DNA of 64,000 nucleotides from Devosia sp. LC5 (lineage in GTDB: Bacteria; Pseudomonadota; Alphaproteobacteria; Rhizobiales; Devosiaceae): assembly GCF_000735585.1 (NCBI RefSeq), contig NZ_JNNO01000013.1:1-64000 (forward strand), written 5' to 3'. Every line of letters starts with the position of its first letter. Position 1 is the first letter of the stretch. Shown piece by piece: positions 52,556-62,964 of this stretch. A model generated the notes under the pieces. It saw only the letters and a list, made by a program, of their open reading frames with translations. It was not told the DNA's origin and searched no databases. The translations under genes and the position numbers were made by a program.

Positions 52556-53416
52556 TTAGACGGCCTGGTCGTAGGCGCTGAGCAGATTGGGCAGGACGGC
52601 GAGTTGATGGGTGATGGAGCGTCCTTCGGCAAGCTCCCAGCAGGCCGAGAGCGCCGCATGGGCGGCGGCCCAGCCCAGGATGCGCTTGCGCGGATAGGCC
52701 AGGCGCTCGGAGAGGATATCAGCGCGGGCGGCGATGCGGCGGGGGTCGGCGGCGATGTGGCCGGCACCCTTGGGGTTGATGAACACATTGGCCACATCAT
52801 AGGCCGGATCGCCGAGCAGGCCCTTGGGATCGATAGCCAGCCAGCCGCGATCCGAACTCAGCACATTATCGTGGTGCATATCGCCATGCAGCGGAATCTG
52901 GGCGCTGGGCCGGTCGAACAAGCGGAGCGCGATGCCGCTGGCGCGGGCATAGAGATCGCGCGCCGTATGCGGCCAACTCCGCACATCAGTGTCGAACAGA
53001 GTCTGGAAACGGTCGCGCAGCGGCTCGAGGCCCTCAGGAGCGCCCTCGCGGGGGCGATGCAGACTGGCAATGACCGTAGCGATAGCGATGGTGCCCTCAT
53101 CATCATGGCCGGCGCGGACGGCGTCGCCCAGCGTCTTGCCCTCGAGCCATTCCATGAAAATGGTATTGCCGTGAATGTCGAAGACCGTGGCGGCCCCCTC
53201 CCCGCCATACCAGTTCAGCAACTGGGCGCCGCGGCTTTCCTCTTCCAAAGCCAGGGGCTTGAGGATTTTGAGGGCGGCGAAGTTGCGGCCATTCTGCTCG
53301 ACGCGGAAGACCCAACTGGTGGCGGTTTCCGCCACGGGCATCGACTTGGTCAGGGACCAGCGGATCATGGCGCGGCTCAGCGCGGTTTCGGCGGGAGACT
53401 GATTCATGTCAGCCAT
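52556..53416 (-). CDS. Aminoglycoside/streptomycin 6-kinase-like phosphotransferase
   Basis: A protein kinase-like fold of about 286 residues of the APH(6)/hydroxyurea kinase family. The catalytic loop is IPLHGDMHHDNVL (HGDxxxxN), and the metal-binding Asp follows in LAIDPKGLLGDPAYDVAN. Many chromosomal members phosphorylate unknown small molecules, so resistance should not be assumed. The start is uncertain: Met codons at 53416 (chosen) and 53407 fit the family length, but neither has a ribosome binding site. The longest frame adds 45 unsupported residues. Coupled to the CAP lipoprotein gene. Confidence 0.87.
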   Translation of the reverse strand: MADMNQSPAETALSRAMIRWSLTKSMPVAETATSWVFRVEQNGRNFAALKILKPLALEEESRGAQLLNWYGGEGAATVFDIHGNTIFMEWLEGKTLGDAVRAGHDDEGTIAIATVIASLHRPREGAPEGLEPLRDRFQTLFDTDVRSWPHTARDLYARASGIALRLFDRPSAQIPLHGDMHHDNVLSSDRGWLAIDPKGLLGDPAYDVANVFINPKGAGHIAADPRRIAARADILSERLAYPRKRILGWAAAHAALSACWELAEGRSITHQLAVLPNLLSAYDQAV

Positions 53417-53629
53417 TAGATCAGAAGGCGGGCTTGCTTTCGACATTAACTGCGCTTGGCAAAAGAACTTGATCGAAATGCGGCGCGGTAGCTTTTTGGT
53501 AAGCAAGACGCTTTGCACGATGGCAACCTTAACGCCAGCAAACCGGGCCACGGCAAGTTTTGATAAAGTTGGCCGGAGTTAGACTGATCGCGACGCAGAA
53601 GACAGCGCCCAATGCAGGGGAACTGGACC

Positions 53630-55941: not shown

Positions 55942-56613
55942 ATGCGAATATTGCTTGTCGAAGATAATGAAGACCTGGGCGAGGCCATCGAGAAGCGGCT
56001 GCGTACGGCGGGGCATTCGGTGGAATGGGTGCGGGACGGCAATGACGTGGTGCCGGCCGCCGAGGGTGATGTTTTCGATGCGGTGGCGCTCGATCTGATG
56101 CTGCCCAATCGCGACGGGATCGGGCTGATCGCCGAATTGCGCAAGCGCAAGTTCAATGCGCCGATCCTGGTGATTACGGCGCGCTCGGAAATCGACGACA
56201 AGGTGAGCCTGCTCGATCTGGGGGCCGATGATTATCTGGTGAAACCCTTCGATCTGCGCGAGCTGGAAGCGCGGCTGCGGGCGCTGATGCGGCGGACCGG
56301 CGGGCAGACCACCAGCACGCTGGGCGTGGGCAATCTGGCGCTGGACATGGCGGGGCTCAATGCCTCGATCGGCGGCAAATCGCTGGAGCTGGGGCGGCGC
56401 GAATTCCGGCTGCTGGAAATTCTGGTGACCAATGCGGGCAAGGTGGTACCCAAGGAGCGGCTGATGAACCAGCTGTTCAATTTCGACGAGGCGGTGTCGG
56501 TCAATGCGCTGGAGCTGCATATCTCGCGGCTGCGCAAGAAGCTGGAAGCGGCGAGCATTGAGATCGGCACGGTGCGTGGCGTGGGCTATGTGTTGCGGGC
56601 GCCGCATGGGTAG
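55942..56613 (+). CDS. OmpR-family response regulator, TctD-like
   Basis: A 223-residue regulator with a receiver (phosphoacceptor D51, T79, K101 in LVKPFD) and a winged-helix DNA-binding domain (about 125-220; LGRREFRLLEILVTNAGKVVPKERL and VNALELHISRLRKKL). The ATG at 55942 gives MRILLVEDNEDLGEA; the longer frame upstream is repeat sequence. It is encoded 153 bases before the kinase/binding-protein fusion and convergent to tctCBA, so it probably controls citrate/tricarboxylate uptake. Confidence 0.93.
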   Translation: MRILLVEDNEDLGEAIEKRLRTAGHSVEWVRDGNDVVPAAEGDVFDAVALDLMLPNRDGIGLIAELRKRKFNAPILVITARSEIDDKVSLLDLGADDYLVKPFDLRELEARLRALMRRTGGQTTSTLGVGNLALDMAGLNASIGGKSLELGRREFRLLEILVTNAGKVVPKERLMNQLFNFDEAVSVNALELHISRLRKKLEAASIEIGTVRGVGYVLRAPHG

Positions 56614-56624
56614 GGCTTTTTCTT

Positions 56625-56760
56625 CGTCACCTCTCCCTTGGGGGGAGAGGTCGGCTCGCCCTCGCGAGACGGGTGAGGGGGCCTTTCTCCACCACCCCGC
56701 CAGGAAAAGGCCCCCTCACCCGCCCCTTCGGGTCGACCTCTCCCCCAAAGGGAGAGGTGT
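56625..56760. repeat. Palindromic repeats, family A, overlapping the kinase ribosome binding site
   Basis: TCACCTCTCCCTTGGGGGGAG with AGGTCGGCTCGCCCTCGCGAG, then inverted GGCCCCCTCACCCGCC and CCTCTCCCCCAAAGGGAGAGG. The final GGGAGAGG lies 11-18 bases before the kinase GTG and would act as its ribosome binding site. Confidence 0.8.
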
Positions 56761-56766
56761 GGTGCC

Positions 56767-59238
56767 GTGACCGAGCCCAGAAGTTCCTTTTCCATCAGGC
56801 GGCGGATTTTGGCGCTGGCGGTGGCGTTGCTGCTGGGCGCTGCGGTAATCCTGGTGGTGTTCATCCGCGATTATGCGGAGCGGGCGGCCGACCGGGCGTT
56901 TGACCGGTTGCTGGCTGCGTCGGCACTGACCATTGCCGGGGCGGTACAGGTGGAAAACGATGCGGTGATCGTGGAATTGCCGTTTGCCTCGTTTGGCATG
57001 TTTTCCGGGCGCGACCGGGTGTTTTATGCGGTGGAAGACCCGCGTGGACGGGCGGTGACCGGCTATGGTGACCTGTCGGCAGACCTTGAAGAAATGCAGT
57101 CGGCGGGGCCGGTGTTTCAGGACGCGATGTATCGCGGCGAACTGGTGCGGGTGGCCAGCGTTGGGCGGCTGACCTCGTCGGCCAGCGAGACCGATTGGGT
57201 GACCATTCATGTGGCCGAAACGCAGAATGAGCGCGAGGCGCTGGCCAATGAGATATTGGGCAATGCCATCGTGCCGGTGGTGGCGCTGACGCTGCTGGCG
57301 GTGGCGCTGGTGTGGTTTGGCATCGGGCGGATGTTTGCCCCGCTCTACCAGTTGGAACAGGCTTTGCGCGGGCGGGCGCCCGATGACCTGTCGCCGCTGG
57401 ATGTGCCGGTGCCGGTGGAGGTGAGCCAGCTGGTGGGGGCGCTCAATGCCTTCATGGCGCGGCTGGGCAGCAGCATGGAGCGGCTGAGCGGGCTGGTGGC
57501 GGAGGCGGCCCATGAAGTGCGCACGCCGCTGGCTTCGCTAAGGGCGCAGGCGGAAGTGGCGATGGATGAGCAGGACCCCGATGCGCTGCGGCGGCGGGTG
57601 GGGCGCATTCACCAGGGGGCGATCCATGCCAGCCAATTGGTGTCGCAATTGCTGATGGACGCGACGATTTCCCATCGGCTGGAGAACCAGGAAAGCGACA
57701 CGACGCCATTCGGAGCAGTGATCGAGGATGTGCGGCAGCGGCTGGATGGCGATCAGGCGGCGCGGCTCAGCCTCGATATTCCCGAGGCGGTGGCGGCGGC
57801 GCAAATCCGTGGCGACCGGGTGGCGCTGCGAGAGATGGTCCGCAATGTGGTTGATAATGCCATGATCTATTCGGAGGGATCGGTTTCCATTGCCGGAGTG
57901 GCGCAGGATGGCTTGCTGACCATGGTGGTGACCGATAGCGGGCCGGGCATTCCCGAGGGGGAAAAAGCGGTGGTACTGGAGCGATTCAAGCGGGGCAGCA
58001 GCGCCAGCGCCAAGGTGGGATCGGGCCTGGGGCTATCGATCGTCAAGCGGGTGGTGGTGGCGCATCGCGGGGCGCTGCGGCTGAAGGACCGGGAGGGCGG
58101 CGGGCTGGCGGTGGAAATCGAATTGCCGCTGGTGGGGCGCAATGCCAGGCTCGAGCAGTTGCGCAAGGCGCTGGGGAGCGTCGCCATGCTGGCGCTGTGC
58201 CTGCTGCTGGTGCAGCCGCAGGCGGCGCGGGCGGTGGAGTCGCGGTATCCGGCGCCCGATGGCAGCACCGAGCAGGTGCTGACCATACTGGGCGTGACCG
58301 ATACGCCGCTATTCGCCCAGTTCGTGGCGGGGTTTCAGCTGCGCTGGCCGGGAGTGACGGTGATTTACGAAGAGACGGATTCGGTGCCGCTGTATGAGCG
58401 GTTTCTGGCGGGGGATACCGACCCCAAGCCGGATCTGGTGATCAGTTCGGCCTCGGATTTGCAGGTCAAGCTGGCCAATGATGGCTATGCGCTGGCCTAT
58501 GACAGCCCCTATCTGGCGCAGCTGCCGGAATGGGCGCATTGGCGCAATGAGCTGTTCGGGTTCACCTTCGAGCCGGCGGTGATCATCTATAATCCCGACC
58601 TGATCGGGGCCGACGAAGTGCCGCGCACACATCTGACGCTGGCTGAGTTGCTGGAGAACCAGACCGCGCGGTTCCGCGGCAAGATCGCGACCTATCATAT
58701 CGGGGTCTCGGGCGTGGGCTATCTGCTGGCGGCACAGGACCAGACGATTTCATCGAACTTCTGGCGGCTGGCGGCAGCATTTGGCCGGGTGAATGCGCAA
58801 TTCAGCGGGTCGAGCCCGGCAATTCTGAACGGCGTGGCCGATGGCTCGCTGGCGCTGGGCTATAATGTGCTGGGCTCCTACGCCTTTGCGCGCAAGGCCG
58901 CAGGGGCCAATATCGAAATCGTGGTGCCCGACGATTATGTGCTGGTGCTGACGCGCTCGATGATGATCCCGCGGGATGCGCCCTACCCCGAACTGGGCAA
59001 GGCGTTTGTCGATTTTGCACTATCGCCGGAGGGGCAGGCCATTGCGGCGGGGCAGACAGCGTTGGGGTCGGTGGTGGCCGGCGGCGTTGGAGAATGGAGC
59101 AGCGAGGCCATTGCGGCGCGCGGGCGCGGGGTGATCCAGCCGATACCACTGGGTCCGGCGCTACTGGTGTCGCTCGACCAGCAGAGGAAGCGGCGGTTTC
59201 TGGATACCTGGCAGGAAATTGTTTCGCCCAAGCCTTAG
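56767..59238 (+). CDS. Sensor histidine kinase (TctE-like) fused to a periplasmic solute-binding protein
   Basis: One 823-residue frame. TM1 (about 13-33), periplasmic sensor (34-165), TM2 (166-186), HAMP-like linker, HisKA with H249 in EAAHEVRTPL, and an ATPase with N364, TDSGPG (389-394) and GSGLGL (418-423): an intact kinase. Then a signal-peptide-like stretch (about 460-489, LALCLLLV then QAARA) leads into a periplasmic binding protein (about 500-820; PDLVISSASDLQVKLAND, VIIYNPDLIG, FVDFALSPEGQAIA). An internal ATG at 58186 with GGGGAG seven bases upstream could also start the binding protein alone. GTG start at 56767. Located beside the regulator and tctCBA. Confidence 0.88.
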   Translation: MTEPRSSFSIRRRILALAVALLLGAAVILVVFIRDYAERAADRAFDRLLAASALTIAGAVQVENDAVIVELPFASFGMFSGRDRVFYAVEDPRGRAVTGYGDLSADLEEMQSAGPVFQDAMYRGELVRVASVGRLTSSASETDWVTIHVAETQNEREALANEILGNAIVPVVALTLLAVALVWFGIGRMFAPLYQLEQALRGRAPDDLSPLDVPVPVEVSQLVGALNAFMARLGSSMERLSGLVAEAAHEVRTPLASLRAQAEVAMDEQDPDALRRRVGRIHQGAIHASQLVSQLLMDATISHRLENQESDTTPFGAVIEDVRQRLDGDQAARLSLDIPEAVAAAQIRGDRVALREMVRNVVDNAMIYSEGSVSIAGVAQDGLLTMVVTDSGPGIPEGEKAVVLERFKRGSSASAKVGSGLGLSIVKRVVVAHRGALRLKDREGGGLAVEIELPLVGRNARLEQLRKALGSVAMLALCLLLVQPQAARAVESRYPAPDGSTEQVLTILGVTDTPLFAQFVAGFQLRWPGVTVIYEETDSVPLYERFLAGDTDPKPDLVISSASDLQVKLANDGYALAYDSPYLAQLPEWAHWRNELFGFTFEPAVIIYNPDLIGADEVPRTHLTLAELLENQTARFRGKIATYHIGVSGVGYLLAAQDQTISSNFWRLAAAFGRVNAQFSGSSPAILNGVADGSLALGYNVLGSYAFARKAAGANIEIVVPDDYVLVLTRSMMIPRDAPYPELGKAFVDFALSPEGQAIAAGQTALGSVVAGGVGEWSSEAIAARGRGVIQPIPLGPALLVSLDQQRKRRFLDTWQEIVSPKP

Positions 59239-59924: not shown

Positions 59925-61472
59925 CTAGTCCTCGTCGCTGGCCAATTGCCCCAATACCTGACCCTTGCCGCGCAGACGGAACCAGAGCGGAACCAGCACT
60001 GCCGCCGCCGCCAAGACATAGAGCGTGATGGCAATGGGGGAGTGGAACAGCACCAGCGGATCGCCCTGGCTGATGGCAAGGGCACGGCGCAATTGCTGTT
60101 CGGCCATGGGACCAAGGATCAGCCCCACGACCACCGGGGCAATAGGATAGCCGAAGCGGCGCAGCAGATAGCCCAATATGCCGAAGGCAAGCAGCAGCAT
60201 CAGCTCGAACGAGAAGCGGATACCGAAGAGGTTTCCCGACATCGCGCCATTGGCACCAAGCGTGCCCAGGGTGGCGAAGACCAGGATGCCGCCATAGAGC
60301 CAGGGCTTGGGGATGGTCAGCAATTTCACCCAGAGGCCGATTAGCGGCAGATTGAGCACGATCAGCATGAAATTGGCGACCAGCAGGCTGGCAATCAACG
60401 CCCAGACCAGGCTGGCATTATTGGTGAAAAGCAGCGGGCCGGGCTGTAGGCCGAATTGCTGGAAGCCGGCCAGCATGATGGCGGCGGTAGCCGTGGTGGG
60501 CAGGCCCAGCGTCAATAGCGGCACCAGTGTGCCGGCGGCCGACGCATTATTGGCAGCCTCGGGACCCGCCACGCCCTCGATGGCGCCGTGACCGAATTCC
60601 TCAGGTTTTTTGGCGAAGGTCTTTTCGGCGCTGTAGGACAGGAAACTGGCCACATCGGCGCCACCAGCCGGCATGGCGCCAATCGGAAAGCCCACAGCGG
60701 TGCCGCGCAGCCAGGGCAGCCAGGACCGTTTCCAATCTTCCCTGGTCATCCAGACCGAGCCTTTGACGGACAGAACCTCGTCATTCACCTGGCTGCGATC
60801 GGCTGCCATCTTGAGGGTTTCCCCGATGGCGAAAAGCGCCACCGCCAGCGTCGTCACCTCGATGCCGTCGAGCAGATCGGGGATGCCGAAGGACATGCGC
60901 GCCTGACCGGTCTGCAGATCGATGCCGATAATGCCCAGGCCCAGGCCCAGGAACAGCGCAGTGAGCCCGCGTAAAGCGCTGTCGCCAAACGCTGCAGATA
61001 CGGTGATGAAGGCCAGCACCATCAGCGCGAAATATTCGGCCGGTCCAAAGGCCAGCGCGAACTTGACGACCCATGGGGCGACAAACGCCAGCGCCAGGGT
61101 AGCGATCAGGCCGGCGACGAAAGAGCCAATTGCCGCGGTGGCAAGCGCCGGGCCGCCGCGGCCTTTGCGGGCCATCTTGTTGCCTTCTAGCGCAGTGACG
61201 ATCGATGCGCTCTCGCCCGGCGTGTTGAGCAGGATGGAGGTGGTCGAGCCGCCATACATGCCGCCATAATAGATGCCGGCGAACATGATGAGCGAGCCGG
61301 CCGGATCAAGTTTGTAAGTGACGGGCAGCAGCAGCGCCACGGTGAGCGCCGGGCCGATGCCAGGCAAAACGCCGACGGCGGTGCCCAAGGTGACACCGAT
61401 CAGTGCATAGATGAGGTTTTGCCATTGCAGGGCGGCGATCAGGCCCTGCGCGAGAAGTCCGAAAGTATCCAT
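59925..61472 (-). CDS. tctA: Tripartite tricarboxylate transporter, large membrane subunit
   Basis: A 515-residue inner-membrane protein with about eleven helices. TctA signatures are [45 protein letters not shown] and, in the second half, [33 protein letters not shown]. It forms the transport path for citrate-like tricarboxylates, fed by TctC. It starts 15 bases after tctB. The last gene of tctCBA, convergent with the small DUF1127-like gene. Confidence 0.97.
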
Positions 61473-61487: not shown

Positions 61488-61973
61488 TCAGGGAATTAGG
61501 CGTTCGAGGGGACCCGAGGGCAGCGAGAGCTGCAGGCCCTTGGCGAAGGCAAACCAGACAAGGAAGGCAAAGACCGCCCCGATGGGAATGGTTTGCCATA
61601 GCGGTCCACGCCCGAAGGCCTTGGCCGTGAAGGCGAAAAGAACGCCGGTCGCGATGGAAAATCCGGCGGTCGACAACAGCAGGAGCTGGGCTACCAGCCC
61701 CGCCACGATCCACATGATGGGCCGGTAATTGTCTGCCTCGCGCGCCGGAAAGCCATGGCGGAATGCCGACACGACGGTGCCGACGGAGAGCAGCAGCAGC
61801 CCACCCGCGATGATGTAGGGGAAGACCGTGGGGCCAACCCGCGCCTGGACGGGCGGCAGGCGCATCTGGCTGGTCTGCCAGATGATGACCACCGCGATGG
61901 CGGCGAGAATGGCCGCGATGACAAGCGCCGCCCCATCGGGGCGGCGCGAGAGATTGGGTTCGCCGGAGCTCAC
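61488..61973 (-). CDS. tctB: Tripartite tricarboxylate transporter, small membrane subunit
   Basis: A 161-residue protein with four hydrophobic helices, the usual shape of TctB, which is poorly conserved in sequence. Position between tctC and tctA supports the call. The start overlaps the tctC stop by four bases (ATGA). A cytoplasmic N terminus of 16 polar residues precedes the first helix. Confidence 0.93.
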   Translation of the reverse strand: MSSGEPNLSRRPDGAALVIAAILAAIAVVIIWQTSQMRLPPVQARVGPTVFPYIIAGGLLLLSVGTVVSAFRHGFPAREADNYRPIMWIVAGLVAQLLLLSTAGFSIATGVLFAFTAKAFGRGPLWQTIPIGAVFAFLVWFAFAKGLQLSLPSGPLERLIP

Positions 61974-62914
61974 TGCACCAGCCCGATGTCTTTCAGGATG
62001 GCGGCAGTCGCCTCGGTGTCGGCGGCAAGCTGAGCAGTGAACTCGTCACCAGCGAGATAGGTGTTGACCCAGCCCTTGGTTTCGAGCGTGGTCTGCCAGG
62101 CGGCCGAATTCACCATCTTTTCGATATCGGCGGTAATGGCGGCCTTCTGCTCGTCGGTGATGCCGGGGGCAGCGGCAACCATGCGCCAGTTCTGCAGCGC
62201 CATATCGACGCCGGCTTCCTTGAGGGTCGGTGCATCGACGCCCGGAATGCGGGTGTCGCTGGACACGGCCAGCAGGCGGAGTTCGCCGGCAGCAATCTGG
62301 CTCGAGAATTCGGAATAGCCCGAGATGCCCACGGTGACCTGGCCGCCAAGCAGGGCAGCAAGGGCTTCGCCACCGCCCGAATAGGCGATGTAGTTGACAG
62401 TGGTCGGATCGACTCCGACCGTCTTGGCGATGAGACCGGCCGTGATATGGTCGGCGCCGCCGGCCGAACCGCCGGCCCAGGCAACCGAGCCCGCGTCGGC
62501 CTTCAGCTTGGCGACCAGGTCGTCCATGGTCTGCAGCTCGGACGCCGCAGGCACAACGATAACCACCGCCTCGCCGGTGAGGCGGGCGATCGGGGTAACC
62601 TGCTCAAGGGTTACGGGCGAGGCATTGGTGAGAATGGCACCCACCATCACGTAACCGCCGACGATCAGGGCATCGGGATTGCCGCTTTCCTGATTGACGA
62701 ACTGGGCAAGGCCGATCGTGCCACCGGCGCCCGGCACGTTGGTGACCTGGACATTGCCCGAAATGCCCTCCGATTGCAGGGCCTCCTGCATGGAACGGGC
62801 GGTCTGGTCCCAGCCGCCGCCGGGGGCAGCAGGGGCCAGAATGGTGTAATCGGCGGCGAAAGCGGGAACGGCCATAGCGCCGGACATCAGCGCGGCCAAA
62901 AGCAGCTTGTTCAT
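61970..62914 (-). CDS. tctC: Tripartite tricarboxylate transporter, periplasmic binding protein
   Basis: A 314-residue receptor. The 21-residue signal peptide ([20 protein letters not shown]) is followed by [24 protein letters not shown], typical of TctC; citrate is the best guess for the ligand. GGGAGGATCT before the ATG at 62914 is a near-perfect ribosome binding site, which rules out the ATG four codons earlier. First gene of tctCBA, with candidate operator repeats 66-84 bases upstream. Confidence 0.95.
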
Positions 62915-62964
62915 AGATCCTCCCATGTAAAAATCCGAACGTCGTTCCGTCCGGCAGGTCCGCC

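Follow-up and report, generated by a model that had tools for sequence, protein, structure and literature searches.

What does a bacterium make from a gene in which a sensor histidine kinase runs on, in one frame, into a periplasmic solute-binding protein (SBP)? Such a gene lies at 56767..59238 (+) in the 64,000-nucleotide stretch of Devosia sp. LC5 analysed here (contig NZ_JNNO01000013.1, positions 1 to 64,000; the window). It opens with GTG, encodes 823 amino acids and, on translation of the window, has zero internal stops. With kinase and SBP in one chain and an apparently cuttable export signal between them, the two partners are probably produced in equal numbers and afterwards cut apart. 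Here, we argue, with a probability of about 0.7, that the product would be a polyprotein that signal peptidase I cleaves after A489, yielding a kinase and a free SBP for citrate-like, possibly metal-bound, acids.

By domain criteria, the kinase half is a TctE-type (2CSK_N) sensor histidine kinase. The periplasmic sensor domain 2CSK_N (residues 23-163, 56833..57255, +; Pfam E 2e-34, 119 bits, cutoff 23) sits between two transmembrane helices, TM1 (residues about 14-33, 56806..56865, +) and TM2 (residues about 166-186, 57262..57324, +), both placed from the sequence and from hydrophobicity across relatives. Next are the Pfam HisKA dimerisation/phosphoacceptor domain (residues 241-301, 57487..57669, +; 40 bits, cutoff 27), with H249 at 57511-57513, and the Pfam HATPase_c domain (residues 349-455, 57811..58131, +; 75 bits, cutoff 26), with N364 and GSGLGL (418-423), i.e., the phospho-accepting histidine and the N and G boxes are all present. 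Across 33 aligned fusions neither H249 nor N364 varies, nor does GSGLGL save for the nearly invariant S419. The rest of the chain consists of a predicted internal signal peptide (residues 458-489, 58138..58233, +), placed by the joint analyses below, and a predicted mature, MctA-like SBP (residues 490-823, 58234..59235, +), placed by sequence and fold matches; Pfam SBP_bac families match residues about 514-769 of the fusion. The single 823-residue frame and its Pfam domains bear out the original prediction of an intact TctE-like kinase leading, stop-free, into a signal-like segment and a full SBP. Seventy-five NCBIfam models match the fusion, and none of the 25 listed reaches its own cutoff.

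The fusion is kept full length and in one frame in 53/75 Devosia genomes (its own included). Two genomes (G013, G052) have the frame interrupted within the kinase part rather than at the joint, two (G056, G066) have the fusion cut by contig ends, two (G058, G065) carry two separate genes, four (G002, G018, G030, G062) hold weaker relatives only, and 12/75 gave no match at E 1e-60. A second, diverged fused copy is found in G060 (39% identity) and G024 (35% identity). Among the best 80 of 566 named loci of the SBP family, 33 are fused, 8 in the genus and 25 outside it; the 80 are the best-scoring ones, so this share is not a frequency. The fused loci outside the genus include Aureimonas, Pararhizobium, Yoonia, Azospirillum, Consotaella and Oleisolibacter and the betaproteobacteria Achromobacter, Alcaligenes and Pollutimonas. 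Mesorhizobium sediminum (L214) is counted with them too, although its frame is interrupted inside the SBP. A class-wide draw of 385 genomes held the SBP family at E 1e-40 in 26 (own included), at 30 loci, two of which are fused besides the window's own (G664, G743; flanks only 1.5 kb). The idea that the domain fusion would recur in relatives thus holds within and outside the genus, and a sequencing error near 58130-58190 is rejected as its origin, the frame being conserved in most genus genomes and beyond. It had also been foreseen that relatives might show two genes with a stop between them; this is so for many, yet the fused form is conserved and turns up repeatedly. The loci L107, L108, L112 and L113 form a second, diverged fused group, to which the 39% and 35% copies of the two genus genomes belong; it has no tct gene in the fetched stretch and may have a different ligand.

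Fused frames also stand in six plasmid records (Peteryoungia, Azospirillum (two), Sulfitobacter, Salipiger, Palleronia), where the annotation reads 'extracellular solute-binding protein' only, so the kinase is hidden by an annotation gap. In one SBP catalogue, proteins whose SBP domain covers under 60% go to manual curation (PMC9602780), and a catalogue of this kind could miss fusions of kinase and SBP. Among the open-licence literature listed, no title matched a kinase-SBP fusion or bacterial polyproteins with internal signals, and print elsewhere is possible.

How might such a gene arise? In 19 of 26 separate loci the kinase gene immediately precedes the SBP gene, both on one strand, and 18/19 offer an NTG start overlapping the kinase TGA (NTGA), the remaining one reading TGATG; please note that among these 19 the record of L161 sets the SBP start further on and the kinase frame of L128 is itself broken. 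The other seven comprise four with kinase and regulator on the opposite strand, one without a kinase in the fetched stretch, and L126 and L127, with the order regulator, SBP, kinase; in L126 all three genes overlap, as read from the sequence. By eye, the separate SBPs begin with signal peptides. One of them, in L110, has a lipoprotein-like signal ending LVLAGCTEEE (by eye) and may be lipid-anchored rather than free. Many SBP-activated kinases are encoded beside their own SBP gene (PMC11113362). We infer that loss of the stop, or a small frame change, within the kinase/SBP overlap would give a fusion that retains the signal peptide inside its product.

In quick trees (LG+G4; groups tested after the trees were seen), the kinase tree (61 rows) and the SBP tree (63 rows) each require 6 fused/separate changes, at least 4 of them forced, and the joined alignments of 82 chosen rows (46 fused) require 6, at least 5 forced. 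On these trees, fusion and separation have switched more than once, and a single origin of all fusions in one clade is rejected (p 2e-8). L126 and L127, the split loci of genomes G058/G065, nest within the main fused clade (AU p 1.2e-4, on 32 rows, when compared with keeping 27 fusions together to their exclusion). This points to a split at a later time, probably a separation that came with relocation of the gene. Since their SBP is a separate gene placed before the kinase, the covalent link is dispensable there.

The joint between the halves carries most of the argument. Its layout is a basic n-region (R458-K467), a hydrophobic core (L469-V482) and a predicted signal peptidase I site, A487-x-A489; it ends QPQAARA, and VESRY follows. 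Of the 73 fusions, 58, picked by score, were aligned. Their -1 column holds 57 A and one T and changes once on the tree, whereas the 38 other joint columns (those with residues in 30 or more rows) between the flanking invariant P and the conserved Y change 6-32 times each. The -2 column has 29 changes and the -3 column 15, with A in 42 of the 58 rows and then T, V, S and P. The sole T at -1, in L154, comes with an own site, TEA/Q, two columns on. A loose -3/-1 rule is passed by 73/73 fusions. A stricter one is passed by 94/100 distinct joints (from 109 fused loci, identical joints dropped) vs 29/96 TM1 and 8/96 TM2, the TM1 figure meaning that the A-x-A pattern is no rarity in such proteins; the six joints that miss it have, by eye, A at -1 with G-x-A, P-x-A or L-A-A. 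The medians of the best 19-mer hydrophobicity are 1.84 for the joint (n 73) and 1.71 for free signal peptides (n 54), vs 3.14 for TM1 and 2.52 for TM2 (n 70 each); a larger set gave 1.82 for the joint vs 2.52 and 3.05 for the TM helices. From these values the joint looks like a retained signal peptide rather than a third membrane anchor, and the suggested AxA-type release site is favoured.

A home-made weight-matrix scan, for which 54 N-termini of TctC/SBP proteins served as training set, failed to tell joints from TM controls: the share above the training 5th percentile was 15% for joints, 26% for TM2, 7% for TM1 and 4% for TctA helices. The scan placed sites inside the hydrophobic core. In our opinion it deserves less weight, as many rows had their site beyond the end of the scanned segment; the column parsimony and the fixed-rule tests, on the other side, were designed after this result and after the joints had been seen. 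At L207 (Aureimonas ureilytica) the fused joint reads GRRHVLSGLALTAATLALPRRARA, by eye twin-arginine-like, and it would be odd for a Tat-type signal to lie inside a chain; MKRRSFLSL likewise opens the separate SBP of L130.

There is a known arrangement of this kind. FbcH of Bradyrhizobium japonicum is a fused cytochrome b/c1 that is processed by cutting. Like the kinase-SBP fusion, it joins a membrane and a periplasmic protein in one frame via a signal-peptide-like segment, but FbcH is an electron-transfer enzyme and the window's fusion a putative receptor. We found such a cytochrome b/c1 gene at L285 (690 aa in one frame, both Pfam families, the same membrane-then-periplasmic order), and its joint, with a 19-mer value of 1.92 and SAKA/AEGG, is of the same kind as the kinase-SBP joint. 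A second long cytochrome c1 frame (L303) had no hydrophobic peaks upstream and was dropped as a control. In the window's own genome, cytochrome c1 lies in a 432-aa open frame. Compared with the FbcH type, the fusion has the one frame and the signal-peptide-like joint with a conserved signal peptidase I site, with the weight-matrix scan against it. Signal peptidase I family proteins are encoded (3 PF10502 matches). To our knowledge, bacterial polyproteins separated by signal peptidase are rare.

The joint has also been read as a third transmembrane helix that stays uncut, so that the tethered SBP would report, within the same dimer, to the sensor domain whether ligand is bound, i.e., a one-protein receptor kinase. 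The topology fits, with the C-terminus of the kinase inside, a positive flank, and the SBP outside; the fusion is conserved throughout much of the genus and the fused state has changed more than once; and cleavage is itself a prediction, with one cut-site scan that failed. However, the hydrophobicity of the joint matches that of signal peptides and lies well under TM1 and TM2, the -1 alanine is the sole near-invariant column in a fast-changing joint, and split relatives with a moved SBP gene lie inside the clade. In the window's form there is also no linker, the first strand of the SBP starting at residue 2 after the proposed cut in the predicted model. The third-helix tether is not favoured because of the signal-peptide-like hydrophobicity and of a fold that starts about two residues past the cut; we consider a tethered receptor possible, at a low probability, and less likely than the cut polyprotein.

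A free SBP could, alternatively, come from a second start of translation, used in addition to the full-length chain. The original prediction pointed to the in-frame ATG of M474 (58186..58188, +), with GGGGAG seven bases upstream, a good distance. This ATG does exist in the window, but as a general start it is not supported, as it is present in only 4/73 fusions (the window and its close relatives L009, L010 and L132). Elsewhere ATG, GTG or TTG codons are scattered, none at a fixed position. That some such codon occurs in 69/73 fusions, with an SD-like match in 36/73, and that the SBP of unfused relatives begins at the same place would speak for initiation at this ATG or a nearby GTG/TTG; however, an abundance of GTG and TTG may be expected from Val and Leu codons in GC-rich DNA, and L094, L096, L155 and L156 (4/73) have no ATG/GTG/TTG in the stretch scanned. 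A product from M474 would begin MLALCLLLV, with no basic n-region. As a general mechanism the internal start is not supported, the ATG not being conserved and its product having no basic n-region, and two products made in this way are quite unlikely.

The SBP half is MctA-like in whole-domain sequence and predicted fold. The model of the mature SBP has a pLDDT of 94.1. The AlphaFold model of the full-length fusion (mean pLDDT 67.8, below 50 for residues 459-488 and poor over much of the SBP) was set aside. The best structural match is MctA with Mg-citrate (Z 44.5, rmsd 1.7, 319 residues, 32% identity), and an Agrobacterium structure, 3c9h, gives Z 43.8 and 36% identity; phmmer finds 7f6e at E 1e-42 and 3c9h at 1e-66. 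Residues D512, S561, S648, S683 and Y705 stand at positions mutated in the MctA structures. Six mutant positions are named in the PDB titles: D28, S79, S164 and Y221 are identical in 38-39 of 40 rows, T199 is S/T (S in the window, conservative), and S26 is replaced by V. Both MctA (7f6e-7f6u) and 3c9h have the fold in common with the window SBP, in which most of the mutated MctA positions recur; their PDB titles, though, place them with ABC transporters, whereas the SBP of the window is joined to a kinase. Matches to an ABC permease or ATPase family were absent among 15 neighbouring ORFs scanned, the fusion included, of which one batch of ten had five that matched no family at all. On this comparison, a citrate-like, possibly metal-bound, acid is the likely ligand for the window, and sugar acids may also fit.

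The neighbourhood suggests what the pair might serve. Upstream lies a TctD/OmpR-type response regulator (Response_reg + Trans_reg_C in Pfam; 55942..56613, +; ORF from 55840, the domain starting at the ORF's Met35), whose best NCBIfam match is TctD with 197 bits, below the cutoff of 337. Downstream, on the opposite strand, are the genes of a tripartite tricarboxylate transporter: the TctA permease (59925..61472, -; Pfam E 7e-152), TctB (61488..61973, -; Pfam E 7e-21) and the solute-binding TctC (61970..62926, -; Pfam E 1e-26). Beyond the regulator stands a UxaC family gene, near which is also a gene of the APH_6_hur (aminoglycoside/hydroxyurea phosphotransferase) family (52556-53551, -, 198 bits). 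Between the regulator and the kinase lies a dispersed palindromic repeat of about 130 bases (56628..56759), with 31-nt arms that are 90% complementary and an inner 17-nt inverted repeat; it has 73 genome matches (itself included, and many being both strands of one copy), with identity up to 85% over nearly the full length. Among the 37 fused loci L094-L153, a TctD-like regulator precedes the fusion in 36/37, as in the window (the exception, L133, is a fragment), a tct gene is within the fetched stretch in 22/37 and absent there in 15/37, and uxaC is present in 13; in Azospirillum thermophilum, citC and a malic enzyme gene are near the fusion. The 15 loci with no tct gene in that stretch and the 13 with uxaC speak against a firm assignment of the ligand.

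In Bordetella, BctE is activated by a citrate-loaded SBP (PMC5812351, PMC9602780). BctDE-BctC of Bordetella pertussis (TctDE family) resembles the window in having kinase and regulator beside a TctCBA-type transporter, and differs in that its SBP is a TctC-type protein that belongs to the transporter and has a gene of its own, whereas the window has a second SBP, of another family, in the kinase frame. A plasmid of Mariluticola halotolerans (L160) carries the same three proteins in the same order, also beside tctCBA, but as separate frames, SBP and kinase overlapping by ATGA. Our reading of the fusion as an SBP-activated kinase of the BctC-BctE type draws on this context and on kinase and SBP distances that correlate (r 0.84, 82 rows; common descent by itself also produces a correlation). 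By analogy with Bordetella, TctC itself could be the sensing SBP, and the fused SBP would then be a stop-loss passenger without a signalling function; the BctC-BctE precedent (PMC5812351, PMC9602780) and the separate TctC next door are consistent with this. The conserved pocket positions, the correlated distances and the SBP gene that unfused relatives keep overlapping the kinase gene argue against it, and we regard it as very improbable.

We therefore return to the cut polyprotein and set out how it would work. TM1 and TM2 would insert the kinase and leave its C-terminus in the cytoplasm. The segment 458-489, the former N-terminal signal peptide of a downstream SBP that was kept upon loss of the kinase stop, would re-engage the translocon and export the SBP, and signal peptidase I would cut after A489. 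One predicted product is the kinase, 1-489 (about 53 kDa, estimate), which would still end in the spent signal, and the other is the free mature SBP, 490-823 (about 36 kDa, estimate). Loaded with a citrate-like, possibly metal-bound, carboxylate, this SBP would dock on the kinase's own 2CSK_N domain; the kinase would phosphorylate the TctD-like regulator whose gene lies right before its own, and the tctCBA genes close by would respond. In place of the overlap of the unfused genes, the fusion would fix the SBP:kinase ratio at 1:1. What the sequences show is the fusion and its recurrence, a constrained cut site, a predicted fold and the neighbouring genes. Cleavage, protein products and ligand are predictions throughout, and it is not our wish to read the docking and the target genes as more than what we infer from likeness and context.

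A further feature counts against the polyprotein. From the end of HATPase to the hydrophobic stretch there is a median of 11 residues (n 73), 0-3 in some fusions and 0 in four loci of one clade (L102, L157-L159), so that the kinase would keep a C-terminal anchor. An ATPase domain tied to the membrane by a spent signal would be odd, as it must reach H249, and we know of no other histidine kinase with a C-terminal membrane anchor that pins its ATPase domain. Known parts are here in an unusual, repeatedly evolved arrangement. It is a tentative proposal, to which we give somewhat less than even odds, that these fusions form a repeatedly evolved class of receptor polyproteins, in which a kinase and its own sensor would be made as one chain and separated by signal peptidase, strictly 1:1, the spent signal serving as the C-terminal anchor of the ATPase domain.

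If true, a receptor-sensor polyprotein would be a natural way of fixing stoichiometry in SBP-dependent signalling. Azospirillum and Devosia would offer ready systems for asking whether one SBP per kinase suffices, how an internal signal peptide is cut, and whether a kinase can function when its catalytic domain is held at the membrane.
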